A stretch of DNA of 64,000 nt, from NCBI RefSeq assembly GCF_003207825.1, contig NZ_NKTY01000013.1:18745-82744 (forward strand), read 5' to 3'. Within the stretch, counting starts at the first letter, position 1. Every line of letters starts with the position of its first letter. The notes under the pieces are model-generated. The model saw nothing but the letters and a program-made list of their open reading frames with translations. It was not told where the DNA came from and did no database searches. This stretch comes from Komagataeibacter saccharivorans. Its GTDB lineage: Bacteria > Pseudomonadota > Alphaproteobacteria > Acetobacterales > Acetobacteraceae. This document shows, piece after piece, positions 5,783 to 53,330 of this stretch. Position numbers and translations under genes: made by a program.

Positions 5783-6727
5783 ATGTCCACCCTGTTTTCT
5801 GTCCTTGTCGATGCTGTCACGCCGGAAGGGGACGACTGCGTGCGCCTGCGTCTGGTCGCCCGGGCGGGGCAGGACGACCTGCCACGCTTTGAACCCGGCG
5901 CGCATATTGATGTCATGACCCCTTCGGGCCTGATCCGTCAGTATTCACTGTGTGGATCAGCGGAAGATCGCACGGGGTATGAACTGTGCATCAAGCGCGA
6001 AGCAGCCTCCCGTGGGGGATCGGAATCCCTGTGCGCGGGAATACGGCGGGGCATGGAACTGCGGATTTCCCCGCCCCGCAATGCGTTCATGCTGCCTGAC
6101 GCGCAACGCCATATCCTGATCGGGGGCGGTATCGGCATTACGCCCCTGCTTTCCATGATGATGTATCTGCAAGGCAGGAATGCTGACTGGCAGCTTCATT
6201 ATTATACGCGTGATCCCCGGCGCGCGCCGTTTGGGGACATGCTACGCCAAAGTCCGTATGCGCCCCGTGTCCAGTTCAGCCGAAGCCTGAAAAACGGGTA
6301 CCCGGATGTACTGGACACACCATCGCCTGACACCGCCATCATGCTGTGCGGGCCGGACGGGTTCATGAACGCTGTTTTTTCCCATGCCATCGCCGCAGGC
6401 TGGCAGGCGGATCAGGTCCATACCGAATATTTCCGCCCGACCGAAACAACCCACGCCCTTTCCGATCGGGCGTTTGATGTCGTGCTGGCGCGATCAGAGC
6501 AGACGGTGAACGTACCGGCGGGACAGAGCATTGCCGCCGCCCTGCTTGCCGCCGGGGTGGATGTGGACCTGTCGTGTGAGCAGGGTATGTGCGGTGCCTG
6601 TGTCGTGCCGCTTGTCGCCGGGGAAGGCGATCACCGTGATATGGTCCTGACCGCGGAAGAACAGGGGCGCAGCATTGCGCTATGCTGTTCACGCAGCCGC
6701 AGCCCGTCGCTGACACTGGACCTGTAA
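5783..6727 (+). CDS. VanB-type oxygenase reductase (FMN/NAD domain plus plant-type ferredoxin)
   Basis: A 314-residue phthalate-dioxygenase-reductase family protein that passes electrons from NAD(P)H to the Rieske oxygenase upstream. An N-terminal flavin-binding barrel (PGAHIDVMTPSGLIRQYSLC) is followed by an NAD-binding domain (LIGGGIGITPLLSMM, MLCGPDGFMNAVF). The C-terminal [2Fe-2S] ferredoxin has Cys ligands in LSCEQGMCGACVVP and a final Cys in ALCCS. The ATG at 5783 was preferred because AGGGA lies 9 bases upstream and MSTLFSVLV fits the family N-terminus. In-frame GTG 5765, ATG 5774 and ATG 5777 are alternatives. Only 14 bases separate it from the oxygenase stop. Confidence 0.9.
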   Translation: MSTLFSVLVDAVTPEGDDCVRLRLVARAGQDDLPRFEPGAHIDVMTPSGLIRQYSLCGSAEDRTGYELCIKREAASRGGSESLCAGIRRGMELRISPPRNAFMLPDAQRHILIGGGIGITPLLSMMMYLQGRNADWQLHYYTRDPRRAPFGDMLRQSPYAPRVQFSRSLKNGYPDVLDTPSPDTAIMLCGPDGFMNAVFSHAIAAGWQADQVHTEYFRPTETTHALSDRAFDVVLARSEQTVNVPAGQSIAAALLAAGVDVDLSCEQGMCGACVVPLVAGEGDHRDMVLTAEEQGRSIALCCSRSRSPSLTLDL

Positions 6728-6758
6728 CCGGGACCGGGCGGGGAATACCCGCGCGTTA

Positions 6759-7550
6759 CTATGGCTGTCGGGAACTGTCCTCGGGGTCCGGTAATGCCAG
6801 CAGCGTCTCTTTCAGCGTATCCGGCAGGGCTGGAAAAGGATCGACCCCGACCGCGCGGATCAGCGTCGCCACATTGACAACCGTGCAGGTCGGGTTTTCC
6901 GTGTTCTTGCAGACATAGACACCGGCTGCGTTGACCATGGGGTCATACACCGCTTTCCATGTGGAGGAAGGCACCACAACATGATGCCCGATCCCCTGCG
7001 TGCTGCCGTAAAAAGCCGGTCCGGTCACGACATAGAGCGCGCCTTCCTGCAACGCCAGTTTCCGCACCGCCCGTTCCACATCGCTCCATATCCCCTTATT
7101 CAGTTCGGGTGTCTGTGGCACGACATTGGCCAGTGAAAACGCCTGATCGCGTCCCGCCATGTCGGGTGCTTCCGACGCTGGTGTCATACGGCCACGGGCA
7201 TAGCCCGAACGCCTGTAATCGGCAGGATCTGCCCCGTCGCCCGGCGGCAGGCGTGGGTCGGCATGGGGCCGGTCGGTCACGCGGCCCAACTGGCTGGCCC
7301 GCATGATTTCCCGCCGGGTCAGATATTCCGCCGACCATAGCGGTTCATGCACCAGACCGGAATTGAGGGCAGCATAATCCGCATTGCACAGCAGGGTCGT
7401 GCGCGGCAGCAGTCCGGGGGCAACCAGCGCGGGCAGGTGGCCCTGCGCGCCGAACTGCGGGCACGGATCTTCCTGGGCTGATGCCGCGCAGGGCATGCTG
7501 ACAGCCAGGCATCCCATAACCGCACACACCCGGACTGATCTGCGTAACAT
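6759..7550 (-). CDS. DNA/RNA non-specific endonuclease-fold protein with degenerate active site
   Basis: A 263-residue exported protein of the NucA/EndA-type (beta-beta-alpha metal) nuclease family. A signal peptide (MLRRSVRVCAVMGCLAVSMP, ending near ASA) is followed by the nuclease-like core, including QAFSLANVVPQTPELNKG, which carries the Asn expected for metal binding. The family's catalytic D-R-G-H reads A-R-G-R here (YARGRMTPA, residues 118-121), so both the Asp and the general-base His are missing. The protein is probably inactive as a nuclease or uses other residues. The start at 7550 has AGAGG 8-9 bases upstream; an in-frame ATG 11 codons earlier is less likely. It converges on the reductase gene. 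Confidence 0.82.
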   Translation of the reverse strand: MLRRSVRVCAVMGCLAVSMPCAASAQEDPCPQFGAQGHLPALVAPGLLPRTTLLCNADYAALNSGLVHEPLWSAEYLTRREIMRASQLGRVTDRPHADPRLPPGDGADPADYRRSGYARGRMTPASEAPDMAGRDQAFSLANVVPQTPELNKGIWSDVERAVRKLALQEGALYVVTGPAFYGSTQGIGHHVVVPSSTWKAVYDPMVNAAGVYVCKNTENPTCTVVNVATLIRAVGVDPFPALPDTLKETLLALPDPEDSSRQP

Positions 7551-7703
7551 ACCGAACACCTCTGGATACCCTGCATAGGGCATTCCACATCAGCCGGGCG
7601 CAAGGCAAGCCCCGGCCTGCGATAAGGTGTAATGGTCGCGGCATCGCAATACTGCCGGAAAAACAGACTGTCTGAAAAACCCGCTTTTCATAAGAAAGGT
7701 TCT

Positions 7704-7742
7704 GGTGAAGCTTTTTGAGAAAAGGCGGCACTCAAAAACCTT
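7704..7742. repeat. Dispersed hairpin repeat (copy 1)
   Basis: The stretch containing GGTGAAGCTTTTTGAGAAAA and GGCGGCACTCAAAAAC resembles copies near 14786, 42491 and 53374. The right half closely matches the 53374 copy (GCGGCACCCAAAAAC). It lies just downstream of the lipid kinase gene and probably acts as, or evolved from, a terminator-like element. Confidence 0.5.
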
Positions 7743-7751
7743 TATTACATT

Positions 7752-8645
7752 TCAGGCCGAAACGATACGGATGGGACGTTCGGCTATGTCGATCCGGACG
7801 GGTGTGAACTGGCGGGCATCCCCATCGCTCTGCACCGGTATGCCCGGTGGTGTGCGGATTTCAATGCACCGCGCGGTATGTATTTCCACATCCCGCTGCC
7901 GTGCAAGATTGCCGCGCAGCAGGGACAGGCTGGCGCGCAGGGTAGCCAGAATGCCGGGCGCCCGGAACAGCACGACCGAGAAGCGTTTCTCCGCCAGCAT
8001 GGAATCCCGTGTCAGGACGTATTTCCCGGCATAGAGAGAACCCTTCGACACGATAACGGAAACGGCATCATATTCCACGCCGTCCAGCAAGACATGCAGC
8101 GGTTCAAATCCGTACCGCCATAATGATCGCACGGTATTCAGAACATAGGCGAACTGGCCTAACGCGCTTTTCAGTCGCGTCGATACGGCATGTACCACAT
8201 GCGCGTCGAACCCGATCCCCGCCATCTGGATGAACAGCCCGTTCCAGCCATCGGATTGCAGGTGGCCGGGCCAGATGACCCTGCTGTTTCCCCGCGCCAT
8301 TACGCCTGCACTGTCGGCATCATCCGATGGAATACCCAGTTCATGGGCCAGCACATTGGCCGTGCCCAGCGGCAGGATGCCAAGGATACAGTCGGACCCC
8401 GCCATCCCTTCGGCGATTTCGGCAATGGTGCCGTCACCCCCGGCTGCTACGATATGCGTGTATTTCTGGTCATGGACCGCTTTGCGGGCAAGTGCTGTTG
8501 CGTGGCCCCGGAAAGCGGTAGGGACGATATCGACCACAAACCCGGCGCCACGCAGGCACTGCGCGAAATGGGCGATACGGGTCCGGCTGTGCCCACCGCA
8601 TTTTTCATTTACAATAATGACGGCTGTTTTGTGCTGGACAGGCAA
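7752..8645 (-). CDS. Diacylglycerol kinase-like lipid kinase (YegS/BmrU/DgkB family)
   Basis: A 297-residue protein with the DAGK catalytic domain. The nucleotide-binding motif AAGGDGTIAEIAEG (GGDGT at about residues 69-73) and PLGTANVLAHEL are typical of soluble prokaryotic lipid kinases, which phosphorylate diacylglycerol, sphingosine-like or undecaprenol-type lipids. The substrate cannot be told from sequence. It lies 64 bases downstream of parB1 on the same strand and could be transcribed with the partition operon, though a functional link is unlikely. Length and domain layout are normal. Confidence 0.88.
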   Translation of the reverse strand: MPVQHKTAVIIVNEKCGGHSRTRIAHFAQCLRGAGFVVDIVPTAFRGHATALARKAVHDQKYTHIVAAGGDGTIAEIAEGMAGSDCILGILPLGTANVLAHELGIPSDDADSAGVMARGNSRVIWPGHLQSDGWNGLFIQMAGIGFDAHVVHAVSTRLKSALGQFAYVLNTVRSLWRYGFEPLHVLLDGVEYDAVSVIVSKGSLYAGKYVLTRDSMLAEKRFSVVLFRAPGILATLRASLSLLRGNLARQRDVEIHTARCIEIRTPPGIPVQSDGDARQFTPVRIDIAERPIRIVSA

Positions 8646-42550: not shown

Positions 42551-44545
42551 TTAAACACCATCCTTCAGGGAACCAAGCCCTTCAAGAAGCGGGCGAAGCG
42601 TTTCATCATCGGGACGCCAGCGCCCGATTGCATTACGGTAAATCGGGTTTCTGACCTGTTCCATACTGGATGTCCTGACCGGACGGGTGGACTTATGGAA
42701 ATCCAGACAGGCCTCATCCCATTCCAGTCCACAATACGCGATGATGCACCGTGCGCTGGCCTCAAGGTTTTCGACTACATCTTCGTAACGCACATCCAGC
42801 ATGGCGCCAGCGGGCAGCACCTTGCGCCAGTGTTCCATCAGTTCATGATACTGGCGATAACGGCGGCCCAGTTCGCCCAGATCGAAAGAGAATTCCTGCG
42901 TATTGAATGGAATTGAAAAGCAGGAAAGGCAGGTGTCCACCGGGTCACGCATCGTATGAATAATGCGTGCATTCGGCCATAACTGGTGAATCAGGCCGAT
43001 ATACAGGTAATTGCCCAATGTCTTGTTGGTAATACGCTGTGGCGGTTCATCCCCCGTCCAGTCGACAACCCGCGCGTTCAGCCGCTGAAGATAGTCTTCG
43101 GCCACTGCAAACCGCTCGGCTTCCGTCAGATGCGCAAGGGGGGCAACCGTTTTCCACGCCGGAAACTGTGTGGCCGCATCCCTGAATGTATCAAGCAGGG
43201 TACCGACTTCGCCCGCCGCATAAACCGCAGGGTGACGCGCCAGTATCTGTTCAACCAGTGTCGATCCCGATCGTGGCATGCCAACAATGAAAATGGGCTG
43301 GGTCGATGAATGGCCGGTCCGGGCCAGACCGGCTATCGCTTCCGTCGAAAAAAGCTCGCGCATCTTGCGCATGCCTGCGAATACCCGCTTTTCATCATAC
43401 TTAATATGGCGACGGCGCAGCGCATTGCCCTGCTGGATATGGGCGAAAGAGCGCTGGTGTTCGCCAATATCCGACAGCGCCTTGCCCAGCGCGAAATGAA
43501 TATCGGAACGTTCCTTATCCGGCAGGGATGTGGCGTTATCCGCCGCCAGTTTCTGCATGACCGGCAGAACCGGATCATCGGCGGCAAGTTTTGCAAGGCG
43601 TGTCAGACATAAATAATACCGCGCACGGTCCGGGGCCAACGCAATGGCACGACGGAACCCCTGTATCGCTGCCTCAATCTGCCCGGTTTCCTGCAACACG
43701 GCGGCCACGGCGGCATGTGCCGCGGCCTCATCGGGTTTCAGGGTCCGGGCCTTTTTGAAATGATGCAGCGCTTCGTTATGCCGGCCGTTCTTATGCAGCA
43801 GCTTTCCCAACTGCATATGGACCGTATAACTGTCGGGACGATGCGCCAGCAGGGCACGATAACAGTCTGCTGCCCTGTCCCTGCGTTCCATATCGATCAG
43901 AAGCGCGCCAAGATCGAGGGTGGTTTCAACATTATCGGGGGCATATGTCAGGGCCTGCTCGAACTGGCTCGCTGCCTCCTCATATCGACCCGTGGCCTGT
44001 AGGGCCTTGCCCAGTTTGTTTATGGTGGCAATATCCGTGGGGTTGCTGACCAGTATTTCCCGGTAGCGGCTGATATCCGCGTTATGCCCGTCAATTGTAA
44101 GAATCATCCGATAGGCGGCGATCGCCCCGGCCTGATCGCCGCATCCGCTCAGCGTGTCGCCCAGATTGACAAGGGCCGCGCGATAATGCGGCGCCAGTTC
44201 AAGCGCCCGACGGAACGCGGCTACGGCTTCTTTCATATGGTCTGCCTGCCGCAGGGCCAGCCCAAGGGTATTAAAGCCTTCCACATTCCTGGGCATATGC
44301 GCCAGAGCACGCCTTAACAGAGGTATGGCTTTTTCCGGCCATCCATGCCGGGCATATAATGTACCCAGAAAGTATAGCGCATCCATCTGGTCAGGATTTT
44401 TGGCCAGCATGCCTTCATAAAGCTGCATGAGACTGGTGGTGTGCGCGTCCTGCTGGTCCGCAGGCCCGGAAACCGGACTGTTGGATAAATGAGTTTCCTG
44501 CATTGACACGCCCATCCCGCAATAAAAGCACCCTGCGGCCACCAT
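42551..44545 (-). CDS. TPR-repeat sulfotransferase family protein
   Basis: Up to 664 residues: an N-terminal array of tetratricopeptide repeats (about residues 35-330, e.g. AIPLLRRALAHMPRNVEGFN, LGKALQATGRYEEAASQFEQ) followed by a sulfotransferase domain. The PAPS-binding loop is FIVGMPRSGSTLVEQIL near residue 420, with RIIHTMRDPVDTCLSCF downstream. Such proteins are common in alphaproteobacteria; acceptor unknown. Start is uncertain: ATGs at 44545, 44515 and 44503 are all possible, with MQETHLSNS (44503) the most family-like. No signal peptide is convincing. Confidence 0.87.
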   Translation of the reverse strand: MVAAGCFYCGMGVSMQETHLSNSPVSGPADQQDAHTTSLMQLYEGMLAKNPDQMDALYFLGTLYARHGWPEKAIPLLRRALAHMPRNVEGFNTLGLALRQADHMKEAVAAFRRALELAPHYRAALVNLGDTLSGCGDQAGAIAAYRMILTIDGHNADISRYREILVSNPTDIATINKLGKALQATGRYEEAASQFEQALTYAPDNVETTLDLGALLIDMERRDRAADCYRALLAHRPDSYTVHMQLGKLLHKNGRHNEALHHFKKARTLKPDEAAAHAAVAAVLQETGQIEAAIQGFRRAIALAPDRARYYLCLTRLAKLAADDPVLPVMQKLAADNATSLPDKERSDIHFALGKALSDIGEHQRSFAHIQQGNALRRRHIKYDEKRVFAGMRKMRELFSTEAIAGLARTGHSSTQPIFIVGMPRSGSTLVEQILARHPAVYAAGEVGTLLDTFRDAATQFPAWKTVAPLAHLTEAERFAVAEDYLQRLNARVVDWTGDEPPQRITNKTLGNYLYIGLIHQLWPNARIIHTMRDPVDTCLSCFSIPFNTQEFSFDLGELGRRYRQYHELMEHWRKVLPAGAMLDVRYEDVVENLEASARCIIAYCGLEWDEACLDFHKSTRPVRTSSMEQVRNPIYRNAIGRWRPDDETLRPLLEGLGSLKDGV

Positions 44546-46520: not shown

Positions 46521-48881
46521 TCAAAAACTTGCGGAAACCGTTCCAAAATACTGCCGGGGCGCACCGACAAGCGCAGACTGGTAATCCCCCGTAAGCGGCA
46601 GCCCGTTTTCACCGATCTGGGAAATATAGCGTACATTGGCGAGGTTATAGATATTGAAATTGATCGTAAGGTTATGCAGCGGGCCATAACTGCCGAAGCT
46701 GTACCGTGCGCCAAGGCTTGTCATCCAGTAACCCGGCACCGATTCATCATTCATGTAACTGAAATAACGTTTTGACATGTAATTCGCATCAACATGCACT
46801 TCGGCATTATGGAAGCTGTAGGTCAGGTTCGCCTTGTACATAAACTGCGGAAAGGCGACGACTTTCTTGCCCTGCAGGGCATATGTCACCCCCTGCGAGA
46901 CGATATTGTTACCGTAGGTCGAGTGGTTGTAACTGATGCTGTTGGTGAACGCGAGGTGCCGGATGGGCCGCACCGTCAGCAGCGCATCCACGCCATACAT
47001 GCTGACACTTCCCACATTCACCACCGTCGATATGGGCTGGATAATGGTGCCACCGGTCAGGGATTGCAGGCGATTGGAGAAATCCGCATGGTAGGCATTA
47101 AGTGAGCCGGTTATGAGCGACGAATTATACCGATAACCGACATCATAAACCCACGCGGTTTCCGGCTTGATCGTTTTCTTGAGCTGATCGAACGTTTCCT
47201 GATTTGAAACACCCCATGGCGAGCCGAGCTGATAGCCCCCATAGCCGTACGCTTTCATGTTCCGGGTAATATCCACATACAGTTCATGCCCCGGCAGGAA
47301 ATGCCATTCCGCATTGATATGCGGCAGGAACGCCTTCGCACTGGTCAGGCTGCCATTGGGCAGGTCCGTCTGCCCGTTATAGGCTGCGTCATTTGCCGTC
47401 GCCCCCCCGGTGGTTGTCACCAGCAGCGAACGGAACCCCGCGCGAAGCGTCAGGTTGGACAGGACCCGGAAGCGGTCCTCCAGATGGAACTGGAACGTAT
47501 TGGTATTATAGGCCATGCCCCAGTTACGCTGGAACGGCGTGCCAAAATTGCCCGATGCCGCATTGATCGGCGTGCCCTGCCCCAGAACCGGTTCCTGAAA
47601 CATGTCCTGATTGAAGTAATAATGATTGTTTTCGTACCAGACGCCTGCCTCGATCGTGTGTTTCTGGATACGGTATTTGAATGCTGTGGTGAAACCATAT
47701 TTCTGGTTGCCCGCAAAATCGATCTGTTCGGACAGGGGGGAGCCATTGGGCGATGCCGTATATGGTGTCGTCCATGTGCCCCAGTGATTTTCCGCCTGAC
47801 CGTAAACAACGGAATCCCAGTCCAGATGCCTGGTCAGGACCAGATGCATGTTAAGCCCGCCGAGATAGTCGGAAGCATGCGTCACGCCATCATAATACGA
47901 AACATCCAGCGCATCGGGAAAATTGGCCAGACTGCCACTGAACTGCCCTTCAGCCGCGGCATAGGCCCTGGCGTAATTGGGATACGAGTAATCATTGCGA
48001 TACCCCAGCGTGCGGATCATGCTCAGTGACTGATCGGCGTAATTGAACTGGGTTGCGTCGTTCCAGTTGAAAAATATCTTCAGGTTACTGTCCTGACCGA
48101 TCGGCTGCACCAGCTTGGTATTGACCTGCTGATCGAACTGTTCGCCGGGGCCTTTCCATTTATTGCCATCCGACCGGGCGTAGGAGATCATGAATTTGGT
48201 GCCGGACGCATTCAGCTTGCCACTATCGGCCCGTACATAGGTTCTGAACGCATTATGGCTGCCGAACATCTGGGCGACCTTGCCACCATATTTATCCTTC
48301 GGGTCGGACGAGTAGATGTTGATCGACCCACCCAGATTGGTCGTTGACGGCACGGACACATCCCCGCCCCCTTCGGACACATCCATGCGTTCGATATTGT
48401 CGGACAGGATGGCAAAATTGATGGTTTCGCCGTTATAGGTATAATAATCCTGCGCCCCCAGCGGCACGCCATCCAGCGTCACGCCAAGCTGGTTCTGCAC
48501 AAATCCGCGCATATAAAGGCTTGAACCCCATGTATCGACCCCAAGGGGATCGTCGGACACGAAGTTGATGCCTGGCGTGCGTGACAGCATCATCATCGGG
48601 CTGCTGCCCTGCACGAACTGGTCCATGGCGGCACGCGACATGGACCGGACCGCCCCATGCGACACGGACCGCGCGGCGGAAACGGAAATCGTCTCATGGG
48701 TATTGGCATTGCGGCCGGACGGTGATGCAGCCGGTCTGGCAGATGTCGCGCGGGCACGGGTACTGCCGCTGGCCGGAGCGTGGCGCGATGCAGCACCCGC
48801 CGCCAGACCATGCGCAGGAAGCAGCGAGATCGAAATGGCCGATGTAGCCATTAATACCGACAGAAAACCTGACCCATTCAT
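46521..48881 (-). CDS. TonB-dependent outer-membrane receptor
   Basis: A 786-residue outer-membrane transporter. A signal peptide (about residues 1-28) is followed by a Ser/Ala-rich linker, a plug domain (SSLYMRGFVQNQLGVTLDGV, MDVSEGGGDVSVPSTTNLGG) and a 22-strand barrel ending in ...GTVSASF with a terminal Phe. It imports a ligand such as a siderophore, vitamin or other nutrient using TonB energy. No Fur box was recognised upstream. AAGGA lies about 10 bases before the ATG. Ligand unknown. Confidence 0.9.
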   Translation of the reverse strand: MNGSGFLSVLMATSAISISLLPAHGLAAGAASRHAPASGSTRARATSARPAASPSGRNANTHETISVSAARSVSHGAVRSMSRAAMDQFVQGSSPMMMLSRTPGINFVSDDPLGVDTWGSSLYMRGFVQNQLGVTLDGVPLGAQDYYTYNGETINFAILSDNIERMDVSEGGGDVSVPSTTNLGGSINIYSSDPKDKYGGKVAQMFGSHNAFRTYVRADSGKLNASGTKFMISYARSDGNKWKGPGEQFDQQVNTKLVQPIGQDSNLKIFFNWNDATQFNYADQSLSMIRTLGYRNDYSYPNYARAYAAAEGQFSGSLANFPDALDVSYYDGVTHASDYLGGLNMHLVLTRHLDWDSVVYGQAENHWGTWTTPYTASPNGSPLSEQIDFAGNQKYGFTTAFKYRIQKHTIEAGVWYENNHYYFNQDMFQEPVLGQGTPINAASGNFGTPFQRNWGMAYNTNTFQFHLEDRFRVLSNLTLRAGFRSLLVTTTGGATANDAAYNGQTDLPNGSLTSAKAFLPHINAEWHFLPGHELYVDITRNMKAYGYGGYQLGSPWGVSNQETFDQLKKTIKPETAWVYDVGYRYNSSLITGSLNAYHADFSNRLQSLTGGTIIQPISTVVNVGSVSMYGVDALLTVRPIRHLAFTNSISYNHSTYGNNIVSQGVTYALQGKKVVAFPQFMYKANLTYSFHNAEVHVDANYMSKRYFSYMNDESVPGYWMTSLGARYSFGSYGPLHNLTINFNIYNLANVRYISQIGENGLPLTGDYQSALVGAPRQYFGTVSASF

Positions 48882-49578
48882 TTCGTGCGGTTCCTTTCGT
48901 ATTCCGGTTCGGTACCGGAACGATATGCGGCAGGGGACACAGAGCGTGGATATCCGTTGATGTCGTTTTTATTAAAAAATACTGTAAATATAGGCTGTTG
49001 ATACTTGCGCCATGCCGCCACGAAACATGATTTTCACATCCGCGAAATGGAGCATGTTCCTGCATTCGCATACATGGCGGGGCCGGAAATACATGCCCCT
49101 ATCGCCGATGGTGGAAATAGTGGCGGTCACTGACATCAGGCACCGGTACGGCGCCACGCATGTCTTCCATTACTATGTAACTGACAGTTCTGGCACGCCC
49201 CGGCCAGTAACCGGAAGCCAGACGGTATAAGGTGACTGAACAATACTGCCCCGATTGAACAGCGGGGATGCAGGCAGGATATGTGATGAGGCGTACATCT
49301 GGTGTTTCATGATGGAAACATCCCTGATCAATGATCGCGTCTGAACGCACAGTGCATGCATATTGAACGGTCGTGCAACAAAAATTCGTAACGCCATCGA
49401 AAAAATAATTCCTGCACGAAAACGTTTTCTGGAATCTCGATATATTGTATATTTATTCAATAATCTGTCGGTTTCCTTCAACGGATCAGGCAGGGTAATT
49501 GGGAGAAGTGTCGATGCACGCGATTTGATTGAACGTTCAGTCAATGTGCTGAGACGGATGATTGCAGAGGAAACCATC
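48882..49578. other. Intergenic region between the TonB receptor and the BetI-BetB gene
   Basis: About 700 bases with divergent promoters. The BetI operator is at 49525-49544. AT-rich stretches at 48965-48995 and 49437-49465 may hold -10 regions. Open frames here lack homology or Shine-Dalgarno sites and are judged non-coding. Confidence 0.45.
49525..49544 (+). promoter_or_regulatory. BetI operator
   Basis: TTGATTGAACGTTCAGTCAA is a 20-base inverted repeat with one mismatch. It matches the known BetI-type operator pattern TTGATTGAACGTTCAATCAA. It ends 34 bases before the preferred GTG start of the BetI-BetB fusion, so the encoded repressor domain probably controls its own transcription. Confidence 0.75.
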
Positions 49579-51657
49579 GTGGCAACTGAGCAGCGTGACG
49601 ACAGCCGCCGGACCCATTTCATCAATATGACCCTTGCGGTTCTGGCCGATTGCGGAAATTCCGGCACGACGCTGGCGCGCATAGCGAATCGCGCCAATGT
49701 TTCCCCTGCCCTGCTGGTGCATTACTTTGGTGACAAGGATTCCCTTCTGGGGGCGGCATTCCAGCATCTGGTCAACCAGTTCCAGCATGACACGACGCAG
49801 GCGCTGAAATCCGCACCCACATGGCGCGCCCGGATCGCCGCGATTGTCGGCTGCTGCCTGGACAGCAGCCAGTTTCGCAAGGATGTGGGATCGGTCTGGC
49901 TGGCTTTCTGGGGGCAGGCGATCCATGTCCCGGCCATTATGGAAGTCCAGCGCATCTATCAGGAGCAGCTATTATCCAATCTGAGCAATGCGCTGCGCCC
50001 CGTCCTGTCGGAAGAGCAGATCCTGCCGGTCGCAACAACCATCGGCGCCCTGATCGACGGCATATGGCTACGCGCGGCACTACAGGGCGTGGATGAAGCG
50101 GATACGCAGGCCGTTGTCGAACAGATCGGCAATTTCGTGGATTCCTGCATCGCCGGGCGTCAGGCACAGAAACTGTCCCTGCCCGCCATACAGCAGGCGA
50201 TACCCGATACCTGCAAAAGCTGGATTGACGGCCGCCCCTTCGCATCCACCGGCGCGCGTTTCACCACGCTTAACCCGGCAACGGGGGAAATCCTTGCCCA
50301 TGTCGAAAGTGCTACGGCCCATGAACTGGACGCGGCGATAGAAAGTGCGGGACGCGGCCAGAAGATATGGGCCGCCATGTCCGGCACGGAACGCGGTCGT
50401 ATCCTGCGCCGCGCGGCTGACCTGTTGCGCGAAAACAGCAGGCTTCTGGCGCATCTGGAAACGCTCGATACCGGCAAGCCCATTGCAGAAACACAGGCTG
50501 TGGACATTCATTCCGGTGCCGACGCGCTGGAATATTACGGATCGCTCGCCGCCACCATCAACGGGGAGGCGATGGATCTGGGTAGCGATGCCTTCGGCTA
50601 CACCCGGCGTGAACCGCTGGGCATTACCGCAGGCATCGGGGCGTGGAATTACCCGCTACAGATTGCATGCTGGAAATCGGCGCCCGCACTGGCCTGCGGC
50701 AATGCCATGATATTCAAGCCATCGGAACTTACCCCGCTTACGGCGCTCCGGCTTGCCGAAATCTATCGGCAGGCCGGGCTGCCTGACGGGGTGTTCAATG
50801 TGCTGGCGGGCGGGCGCGAGACGGGCGAACTGCTGGCCACCGCACCGGCCATACGCAAGGTTTCGCTGACCGGTTCGGTCGGCACCGGTCGGCAGGTCAT
50901 GGCTTCCGCCGCGCAGAGCCTGAAATATGTGACGCTCGAACTCGGGGGTAAATCCCCCCTCATCATCTTTGACGATGCGGATATCGGGAACGCGGTTTCA
51001 GCCGCGCTACTGGCCAATTTCTATTCCGGCGGTGAAATCTGCTCCAACGGCACGCGGGTTTTCGTCCACCAGAACATACATGAACAGTTCATCGCCGCCC
51101 TGAAGGCGCGGGTGGAAAAAATGCGTATCGGCCATCCGCTGGACCCGAAAACGCAGGTCGGGTCGCTCGTCTCGCACGACCATATGGAAAAGGTGCTCGG
51201 TTACATCGAACTGGGTAAACGGGAAGGGGCAACCCTGCTGACCGGCGGCCACCGCGTAACGGACGGCGCACTTGCCGCGGGTGCTTTTGTAGCGCCCACG
51301 GTCTTTACCAACTGCACCGATGACATGCGCATCATGCGCGAGGAGATTTTCGGTCCGGTCATGTCCGTCACCACCTTTACTGACGAGGACGAGGTGGTGG
51401 CACGCGCCAACAACACCGAATTCGGTCTGGCCGCCGGCATATTCACGCAGAATCTGGCACGCGGGCACCGGGTCATCAGCCGTCTGGAGGCCGGAACGTG
51501 CTGGATCAACAACTATAACATCACACCAATTGAAATGCCGTTTGGTGGCGTAAAGCAGTCGGGGCTTGGGCGGGAGAACAGTCGTCTCGCCCTGGAACAC
51601 TATACACAGGTGAAGAGTGTATATGTCGCATTGGGCAATGTTGATTCACCTTACTGA
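49579..51657 (+). CDS. betB: BetI-BetB fusion: TetR repressor fused to betaine aldehyde dehydrogenase
   Basis: A 692-residue protein in one uninterrupted frame. Residues about 1-200 are a BetI-type TetR repressor ([40 protein letters not shown]). After a short linker, residues about 215-690 form a full-length betaine aldehyde dehydrogenase: [37 protein letters not shown] (Glu) and [13 protein letters not shown] (Cys). It oxidises betaine aldehyde to glycine betaine. The GTG start at 49579 has AGAGGAA 6-7 bases upstream. The open frame continues to 49363, but that extension contains the operator. Normally betI and betB are separate genes. Choline dehydrogenase follows by 17 bases. Confidence 0.9.
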
Positions 51658-51674: not shown

Positions 51675-53330
51675 GTGTCCGAATTCGATTACATCATTGT
51701 GGGCGCAGGGTCGGCGGGCTGCGTTCTGGCCAACAGGCTGACCGAGACCGGTAAGGACAAGGTTCTGCTTCTCGAATTCGGTGGCAGCGACCGCTCCATT
51801 ATTGTCCAGATGCCAAGCGCGCTGGCCATGCCCATGCATGACCGCCGCTTCAACTGGTTTTATGAAAGTGAACCCGAACCCCATCTTGGCGGCCGCCGTA
51901 TGAATACCCCACGGGGCAAGGGGCTGGGTGGTTCTTCATCCATCAATGGCATGGTCTATGTCCGGGGAAACCCGCTGGACTATCAGGAATGGGAAGAGTC
52001 CGGTGCGCAGGGGTGGGGATACCGTCATGTCCTGCCCTATTTCCGGCGCGCCGAAGGGTGCGATGATGGGGACGGGGTCTATCGCGGCCGTTCGGGGCCA
52101 CTGCACACCCAGTACGGCACGCTGGATAATCCGCTACATGAAGCATGGATGAAAGCGGGTGAGCAGGCAGGCTATGTAAGGACATCGGATTACAACGGCT
52201 TCCGGCAGGAAGGCTTCGATAAAATGGCCATGACCGTCAAGAACGGTCGCCGCTGGAACACAGCCAACGCCTATCTGCGCCCTGCCCTGTCACGCCCGGG
52301 CCTGAAGGTGGAAACGCATGCGCGCGTCACCCGCATCCTGTTTGAAGGCAGGCGTGCGGTGGGGCTGGTCTACCGTCAGGGCGGGAAGGAAACAACCGTC
52401 CGGGCGCGCAGGGAAATCATACTCAGTGGCGGGCCGGTCAATACGCCCCAGCTTCTTAAACTGTCGGGTATCGGTCCGGCGGCGGAACTGCGCGAACACG
52501 GCATTTCCGTACTGGCTGACCGCCCCGGCGTAGGCGAAAACCTTCAGGATCATCTGGAGTTTTATTTTCAGGTCGCGTGCAGAAAACCGATCACGCTCTA
52601 TTCCGCCATGAGTACGCTCGCCAGGGCGCGGATTGGCCTGCGCTGGCTGCTGCGCAAGGATGGGCTGGGGGCAACCAATCATTTTGAAAGCTGCGGTTTC
52701 ATACGCAGCCGACCCGGCATCCGCTACCCGGATATCCAGTTCCATTTCCTGCCGCTTGCTGTCACCTATGATGGCAAAAGTCTGGCTACGGGCCATGGCT
52801 ATCAGGCGCATGTCGGGCCCATGCGCTCGAAAAGCCGGGGATGGGTGCGCCTGCGTTCCGCCGATCCGGAAGACAAGCCAAGGATCTTTTTCAATTACAT
52901 GAGCCACCCCGAAGACTGGGAGGATATGCGCAACTGCATCCGCCTGACGCGTGAAATCTTCGCCCAGCCTGCTTTCGATCCCTATCGTGGAAAGGAAATA
53001 CAGCCCGGCGCGCAATGCCAGACCGATGAACAGATGAATGACTTCATCCGCGATAAGGTCGAAAGCGCCCTGCATCCCTCGTGTACCTGCAAGATGGGAC
53101 GAAGCGATGATCCGATGGCCGTAGTAGATGCCGAAACGCGGGTCATCGGGGTGGACGGGCTGCGTGTTGTGGATTCATCCATCATGCCGCGCATCACCAA
53201 CGGCAACCTGAATGCCCCCACGGTCATGATAGCGGAAAAAGCCGCAGACCATATCAGGGGCATACCGTTGCTGGCGGCCTCCAACGCTCCCTTTTATGAA
53301 GCCCCGGACTGGCAGACCCGACAGCGGTAA
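51675..53330 (+). CDS. betA: Choline dehydrogenase (GMC oxidoreductase)
   Basis: A 551-residue FAD-dependent GMC oxidoreductase that oxidises choline to betaine aldehyde (and possibly onward). The FAD-binding motif is YIIVGAGSAGCVLANRL. GMC signatures are GKGLGGSSSINGMVYVRG and GPVNTPQLLKLSGIG. The C-terminal active-site segment contains HPSCTCKMGRSDDPMAVVD and NGNLNAPTVMIAEKAAD. GTG start at 51675 with AAAGGA about 9 bases upstream. Co-transcribed with the BetI-BetB gene to supply the osmoprotectant betaine. Confidence 0.93.
   Translation: MSEFDYIIVGAGSAGCVLANRLTETGKDKVLLLEFGGSDRSIIVQMPSALAMPMHDRRFNWFYESEPEPHLGGRRMNTPRGKGLGGSSSINGMVYVRGNPLDYQEWEESGAQGWGYRHVLPYFRRAEGCDDGDGVYRGRSGPLHTQYGTLDNPLHEAWMKAGEQAGYVRTSDYNGFRQEGFDKMAMTVKNGRRWNTANAYLRPALSRPGLKVETHARVTRILFEGRRAVGLVYRQGGKETTVRARREIILSGGPVNTPQLLKLSGIGPAAELREHGISVLADRPGVGENLQDHLEFYFQVACRKPITLYSAMSTLARARIGLRWLLRKDGLGATNHFESCGFIRSRPGIRYPDIQFHFLPLAVTYDGKSLATGHGYQAHVGPMRSKSRGWVRLRSADPEDKPRIFFNYMSHPEDWEDMRNCIRLTREIFAQPAFDPYRGKEIQPGAQCQTDEQMNDFIRDKVESALHPSCTCKMGRSDDPMAVVDAETRVIGVDGLRVVDSSIMPRITNGNLNAPTVMIAEKAADHIRGIPLLAASNAPFYEAPDWQTRQR

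Follow-up and report, generated by a model that had tools for sequence, protein, structure and literature searches.

In the stretch of Komagataeibacter saccharivorans DNA analysed here (64,000 nucleotides, hereafter the window, to which all coordinates refer) a BetI-type repressor domain and a betaine aldehyde dehydrogenase (BADH) domain are confirmed to stand in one unbroken frame, with both halves apparently intact as judged from sequence. We predict that the 692-residue chain oxidises betaine aldehyde, and it is likely to repress its own operon and to be released by choline, a reading which we hold, by a slim balance, to be the probable one. What is new here is that two separate operator units are frequent in fused loci and rare in unfused betI-betB loci. 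The fusion appears to be a widespread and old architecture, peculiar neither to this genome nor to the Acetobacteraceae, which corrects the preliminary description of this DNA, and as far as could be found it is recorded automatically in databases but has not been studied.

The fusion gene and its domains

The preliminary description had read a full TetR/BetI domain, a short linker and a full-length BetB in a single 692-residue frame, and this stands, as the Pfam and NCBIfam cut-offs are passed and the catalytic Glu and Cys are present (Table 1). Two NCBIfam equivalogs for betaine-aldehyde dehydrogenase, TIGR01804 (688 bits, cut-off 668.6) and NF009725 (796.1 bits, cut-off 593), are passed by the enzyme half. 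The counterparts of E454 and C488 in the Pseudomonas aeruginosa BADH are E252 and C286, which appear in the titles of PDB 2xdr and 3zqa. Both residues of the window protein are invariant in an alignment of 119 fusions, made up of that protein and of the listed homologues other than P0002 and P0056 (118 of 120). Oxidation of betaine aldehyde to the osmoprotectant glycine betaine is the predicted reaction of the BetB half. A Pfam search of the fusion protein at E 0.001 returned TetR_N, TetR_C_6 and Aldedh and nothing else, with neither a proline dehydrogenase domain nor the DNA-binding domain of PutA found, and a fold search with the whole predicted model gave aldehyde dehydrogenases only among the best 50 matches listed. 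BetI is a free-standing regulator of about 200 residues and the chain here is a 692-residue fusion; by its domains the window feature is best described as a BetI domain, rather than a BetI protein.

Table 1. Features of the fusion locus and its neighbours (positions in the window)
Feature	Position	Strand	Remarks
TPR-repeat protein with C-terminal sulfotransferase domain	42551-44545	-	664 residues
TonB-dependent receptor	46521-48881	-	divergent from fusion gene
Distal operator-like unit, TTGAACGGTCGTGCAA	49363-49378	.	score 9.5; 166 bp upstream of proximal 16-bp unit
Weak middle unit, TTGTATATTTATTCAA	49445-49460	.	score 9.0; may be chance
Proximal BetI-box-like operator, TTGATTGAACGTTCAGTCAA	49525-49544	.	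34 bp before GTG; 1 mismatch to the consensus as we assume it
betI-betB fusion gene	49579-51657	+	open frame, 692 residues, GTG start to TGA stop
TetR_N helix-turn-helix domain	49630-49755	+	residues 18-59; Pfam PF00440, 36.5 bits, cut-off 24
TetR_C_6, BetI-type C-terminal domain	49825-50151	+	residues 83-191; Pfam PF13977, 78.3 bits, cut-off 27
Linker	50158-50217	+	20 residues by profile boundaries; without usable internal start
Aldedh domain, BADH type	50251-51621	+	residues 225-681; above Pfam cut-off
Catalytic codon E454	50938-50940	+	
Catalytic codon C488	51040-51042	+	
betA, choline dehydrogenase	51675-53330	+	TIGR01810, 823.5 bits, cut-off 732.1; 17 bp after fusion stop

The sequence AGAGGA stands immediately 5' of the GTG start. 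With the in-frame ATG at 49558 as start the protein would be seven residues longer, and the closest database copy (P0002, 699 aa) begins at this position. Linkers of the fusions are variable and alanine/proline-rich, with lengths by profile boundaries of 0-32 residues (median 19) over 80 fused loci, and that of the window is modelled with low confidence (pLDDT < 50 at residues 197-206 of the predicted structure). No ATG occurs in it and neither of the two GTG codons has a Shine-Dalgarno match, thus an internal start yielding free BetB has no candidate in the window linker. Close to the former BetB start, an initiation codon with a Shine-Dalgarno match is found in 15 of 74 distinct fusions (10 of them ATG) against 30 of 41 unfused loci, the start before BetB having been lost in most fusions. 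The linkers of six Xanthobacteraceae (Ancylobacter) loci (L009, L011, L013, L016, L017 and L020) have a Met at about the beginning of free BetB, looking like a fossil start codon.

Within the BetI half W107 and W111 are present in all 73 fused and all 41 unfused rows, W163 in 72/73 and 41/41, and D160 in 73/73 and 33/41, with Glu in the other eight. We infer that these four residues line the ligand pocket; the conserved aromatic and Asp residues are compatible with a pocket that is unchanged, and the fused BetI half may sense choline by itself. Choline is known to stimulate the BetI-DNA complex of E. coli, as cited in the available parts of PMC2628434 and PMC12442346. In the available part of PMC6207618 betI, betB and the term 'gene fusion' occur together, the single BetI passage there concerning choline sensing in E. 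coli.

The window protein keeps the helix-turn-helix (HTH) residues that are invariant in the fused rows. Its BetI half (49579-50160) departs from near-universal residues at positions 82, 122, 130, 156 and 180, with E122 and Q130 standing where Arg is found in 72/73 fused and 41/41 unfused rows. The window branch has a length of 0.93 for the TetR half against 0.37 for the ALDH half.

Distribution and age of the fusion

All of the best 120 of 8000 scored homologues carry TetR_N, TetR_C_6 and Aldedh. One of them, P0002, represents 29 member sequences, the other listed homologues having 58-69% identity. The 80 best genome loci, which were picked by similarity to the fusion query, comprise 59 single-frame fusions, 15 loci with separate adjoining betI and betB and six in which no TetR was found. 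A sequencing error, named in the preliminary description as something that could undo the fusion, or a local oddity is ruled out in practice by the 29 sequences of P0002 and the 59 of 80 loci. Fused loci are found in the Acetobacteraceae, Hyphomicrobiales, Caulobacterales, Sphingomonadales and gammaproteobacterial MAGs. The BetI half alone as query gave 12 proteins, and in viral contigs two relatives were found, with the match confined to the enzyme half.

The share of genomes with the fusion is given by family, class and phylum samples that were not selected for it. In the window's family 28/299 genomes match at E <= 1e-140 and 16 of the 28 are fused, including one (L104) without the HTH part; the search of the Acetobacteraceae for the same architecture, which had been proposed in the preliminary description, thus finds it present. 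In the class sample 49/385 genomes match and 3/49 are unbroken through both domains, in the phylum sample 111/398 match and 5/111 are fused, counting one (G950) with a divergent TetR half picked up by profile search alone; in these two samples the best 30 loci were classified and the others judged by match start, by which a divergent TetR half could escape. Among the seven genomes listed for the window's genus the distribution is patchy, with the fusion in the window genome and G254 and no match of BADH grade in G060, G135, G184, G222 and G281. In L104 the BetI half is reduced to a C-terminal part (match from query residue 134), and this part lies upstream of the enzyme half, at about 1501-1717.

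In several unfused neighbours betI and betB share a reading frame, and one to three stops fall inside the match, so that a weld needs little change. In a tree of the TetR half with 115 rows, all 74 fused ones fall into a single group, which encloses one unfused row, L073, and requires two changes. In the ALDH tree, with 150 rows, the fused ones (74) fall inside a starred set of 97 that includes unfused and TetR-less rows, with 11 changes, at least four of them forced by starred branches, and here losses, splits or a multiple origin are possible; both trees are quick ones with weak inner branches. The simplest reading is of one old fusion that arose about once and of one re-split. In L073, from a gammaproteobacterial MAG (6004-8002), the TetR half is followed by a stop codon and BetB opens with a TTG that has the Shine-Dalgarno-like AAGAAGG in front of it, so that the locus looks like a genuine re-split inside the fused clade.

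Operators of fused and unfused loci

The smallest unit common to fused and unfused loci is TTGA-N8-TCAA. An exact copy lies within 400 bp upstream in 71/78 fused loci against 6/1344 control windows and in 32/44 unfused loci against 5/467, where L025 and L037 were dropped from the 80 fused loci as upstream sequence was lacking, the controls were taken from the same loci and are mostly coding DNA, and the unit, its core and the score weights were picked after seeing the sites. Because of this excess upstream of the fusions, DNA binding by the fused BetI half is probably kept. When 20-mers are scored the upstream score lies above every control window in 57/77 testable fused and 40/44 unfused loci, and with shuffled upstream regions as a second control the mean best scores were about 10 to 12 of 20.

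In the window the box at 49525-49544 was identified with what we take to be the 20-bp BetI palindrome consensus, which stands exactly (20/20 letters) upstream of betI in the unfused loci L057, L060, L062 and L064. The box is the sole window site at three or fewer mismatches, with none in 100 shuffles, and its score of 19 of 20 matches the highest among fused loci. When R is allowed at the odd position, the only exact match in the genome is the one at 49525-49544, with one other place at three mismatches. The units at 49363, 49445 and 49525/49529 mean that a compact box and a distal unit are both present in the window, and the spacing of 166 bp is like the 167-bp class of L005, L090 and L091. 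The palindrome given for Ruegeria BetI1 in the available part of PMC12442346 (ATTGACG, centre, CGTCAAT) is related to the one used here, not identical.

It is in the layout of the units that fused and unfused loci differ. At least two separate units within 500 bp, at a weighted score of at least 9, are found in 45/78 fused and 3/44 unfused loci, the control windows giving 4/1058 and 0/358 respectively. At a score of 8.5 the counts are 54/78 and 7/44, among loci with a divergent ChoX/W/V-type transporter 37/53 and 2/22, and after dropping rows with identical ALDH 42/72 and 3/41. The compact box, in which two units overlap at a 4-bp offset, is instead found in 28/44 unfused and 7/78 fused loci. 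Fused pairs more than 80 bp apart (score 8.5, n=50) have a median spacing of 156 bp and a range of 84-206 bp, with four closer pairs besides, and no clear helical phasing at 10.5 bp was found among them (R 0.28 for the 50 pairs, 0.13 for 35 distinct spacings). Fewer than two units at score 9 are present in 33/78 fused loci, for example in most of one Gluconacetobacter group and in the Sphingomonadales. As the fusion arose about once the contrast in layout is without phylogenetic replication, and a phylogeny-aware test of fusion against two units had two independent pairs and no power. Units of 10.25 and 8.5 in the re-split L073 stand beside units of 9.0 and 8.75 in L058 and L069, the fused sisters, a pattern that does not discriminate. 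In the 4.6-kb locus of L104, with its HTH part missing, no unit of score 8.5 or more was found, which fits the loss of the HTH as a single case.

The operon and the rest of the genome

The gene betA is found directly 3' of the fusion in 78/80 fused loci, and in the window the two probably share one operon. At the divergent position there is a TonB-dependent receptor in the window where many relatives have a choline-type transporter.

The window genome is an assembly of 107 contigs with completeness given as 100%. A second BetI or a close BetB that could provide redundancy was not found in it, the TetR_C_6 match of the fusion being its sole one and the next aldehyde dehydrogenase having 42% identity over the enzyme half, and for these reasons both jobs, repressor and BADH, seem to rest on the fusion protein. 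No BCCT transporter was found in the genome. Away from the fusion, on contig C49, an OpuAC-type match (L171) resembles a ChoX/W/V locus with permease and ATPase; this choline-type ABC transporter is divergent from a sarcosine-oxidase-like gene, and no operator unit of score 9 or more was found in the 3.7-kb stretch. A regulon call from the 16-bp operator pattern alone was rejected, since with one mismatch allowed the pattern is too loose, occurring 65 times in the genome against 12 for a reversed-pattern control. A promoter scan gave three weak promoter-like matches, which are not used in the argument.

How the fused protein may act

In the mechanism that we favour the BetI half would, without choline, hold the operon of the fusion and betA down at the upstream operator-like sites. 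Choline would release the repressor half from its operator and the BetB half would then make glycine betaine. The weld would fix repressor and enzyme at 1:1, and newly made enzyme would restore repression once the choline is spent. Weighing on the other side, the divergent gene of the window is a TonB receptor rather than a transporter, and the window has its long TetR branch (0.93) and its departures at conserved positions.

BetB-type enzymes are tetramers and TetR proteins are dimers, and joining the two may give a particle with two DNA-binding heads; one tetrameric particle would then be able to hold two operators at once. Such a particle fits the shift from one compact box in unfused loci to two separate units in many fused ones, and in our view it would best explain the spaced units, with one site for each divergent promoter as the simpler alternative. 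Taken further, and here we are tentative and on the whole doubtful, the BetB tetramer would be a scaffold showing two BetI dimers and bridging operators about 155 bp apart, with a promoter loop opened by choline, and the box would have been rewritten to spaced units after a single weld. The betIB-betA promoter would lie in this loop, in many species together with that of the divergent choline transporter. Against bridging are the want of clear phasing, the failure of 33/78 fused loci to reach two units and the roughly single origin of the fusion, and the promoter of the divergent transporter may be all that the second unit serves.

The latter idea is part of an unlikely, though serious, alternative in which the weld is neutral, the halves acting as free BetI and BetB after a stop was lost once and tolerated, with the two operators serving divergent promoters. 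Unfused betI and betB do often adjoin, in the same frame in 24/44 cases, though the search favours such cases, the linker is variable and alanine/proline-rich, and a divergent transporter accompanies 37 of the 45 fused loci with two units; however, only 2/22 unfused loci with the same divergent transporter show two units, the fusion has been retained in several orders, a single clear re-split having come to light, and the Shine-Dalgarno start before BetB is gone from most fusions. That free BetB is still made beside the fused chain, by linker proteolysis or from a second start, is very improbable: 15 of the 74 distinct fusions, some of them in the Acetobacteraceae, do keep a Shine-Dalgarno-matched start near the old one and the linker is flexible in the predicted model, but the window linker has neither an ATG nor a matched start.

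The preliminary description had proposed that the repressor senses choline/betaine aldehyde flux directly through the enzyme to which it is tied. In a PutA-like trigger enzyme of this kind betaine aldehyde or NAD(H) on the dehydrogenase half would switch the DNA-binding half and flux would set repression. A repressor and an enzyme of one pathway are indeed covalently tied, and a precedent is PutA of Ralstonia solanacearum, whose regulation is enhanced by proline and inhibited by NAD+ and FAD according to the available part of PMC9132996. Rigid signalling from domain to domain is nevertheless not favoured by a linker that is variable in length and of low model confidence, and the BetI half, retaining its conserved aromatics, need not borrow a sensor; we regard this as distinctly unlikely. 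What the comparison of loci points to is an effect of the weld other than flux sensing, namely two separate operator units. Least probable of all is that in the window lineage the repressor half is decaying and the enzyme alone matters, for whilst the TetR branch is long against that of the ALDH half, odd residues stand at conserved places and the relative L104 has lost its HTH part, the window retains the invariant HTH residues and its box scores equal to that of the best fused locus.

Relation to known systems and significance

In searches of the open-licence PMC literature, including the available part of PMC7824335, no described or characterised BetI-BetB fusion was found, in agreement with the preliminary description, which knew of no characterised example. 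Some database sources automatically name such entries 'Multifunctional fusion protein', and entries under this name or as 'betaine-aldehyde dehydrogenase' (Ancylobacter, Azorhizobium, Starkeya and others) have the same three-domain architecture; they are pipeline-named and no study of them was found. With BetI of E. coli, Sinorhizobium meliloti and Ruegeria pomeroyi the window locus shares TetR_N and TetR_C_6, a BetI-box-like palindrome upstream, and betA and betB in the operon. It differs in that the repressor is covalently joined to BetB and that many fused relatives have two separate operator units in place of one compact box, and from BetB, the NAD(P)-dependent betaine-aldehyde dehydrogenase, in having a 200-residue DNA-binding protein at the N terminus. 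Like PutA, the trifunctional proline catabolic repressor-enzyme, the chain has a DNA-binding part joined to an aldehyde dehydrogenase whose pathway would be under its control, unlike PutA it has a TetR domain and is without the proline dehydrogenase domain. By its domain content it would belong to the trigger enzymes, that is, enzymes carrying their own nucleic-acid-binding regulator.

If the favoured reading is true, the fusion would be a trigger-enzyme design made from parts unlike those of PutA, in which a TetR-type repressor is tied to the enzyme it would control. It would also be a fused repressor-enzyme kept across several bacterial orders for which no characterising paper was found. As fused, unfused and re-split forms of the operon occur in relatives, the gain from welding is directly testable. 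If the two-operator layout does reflect bridging by the tetramer, the oligomeric state of an enzyme would be part of gene regulation.
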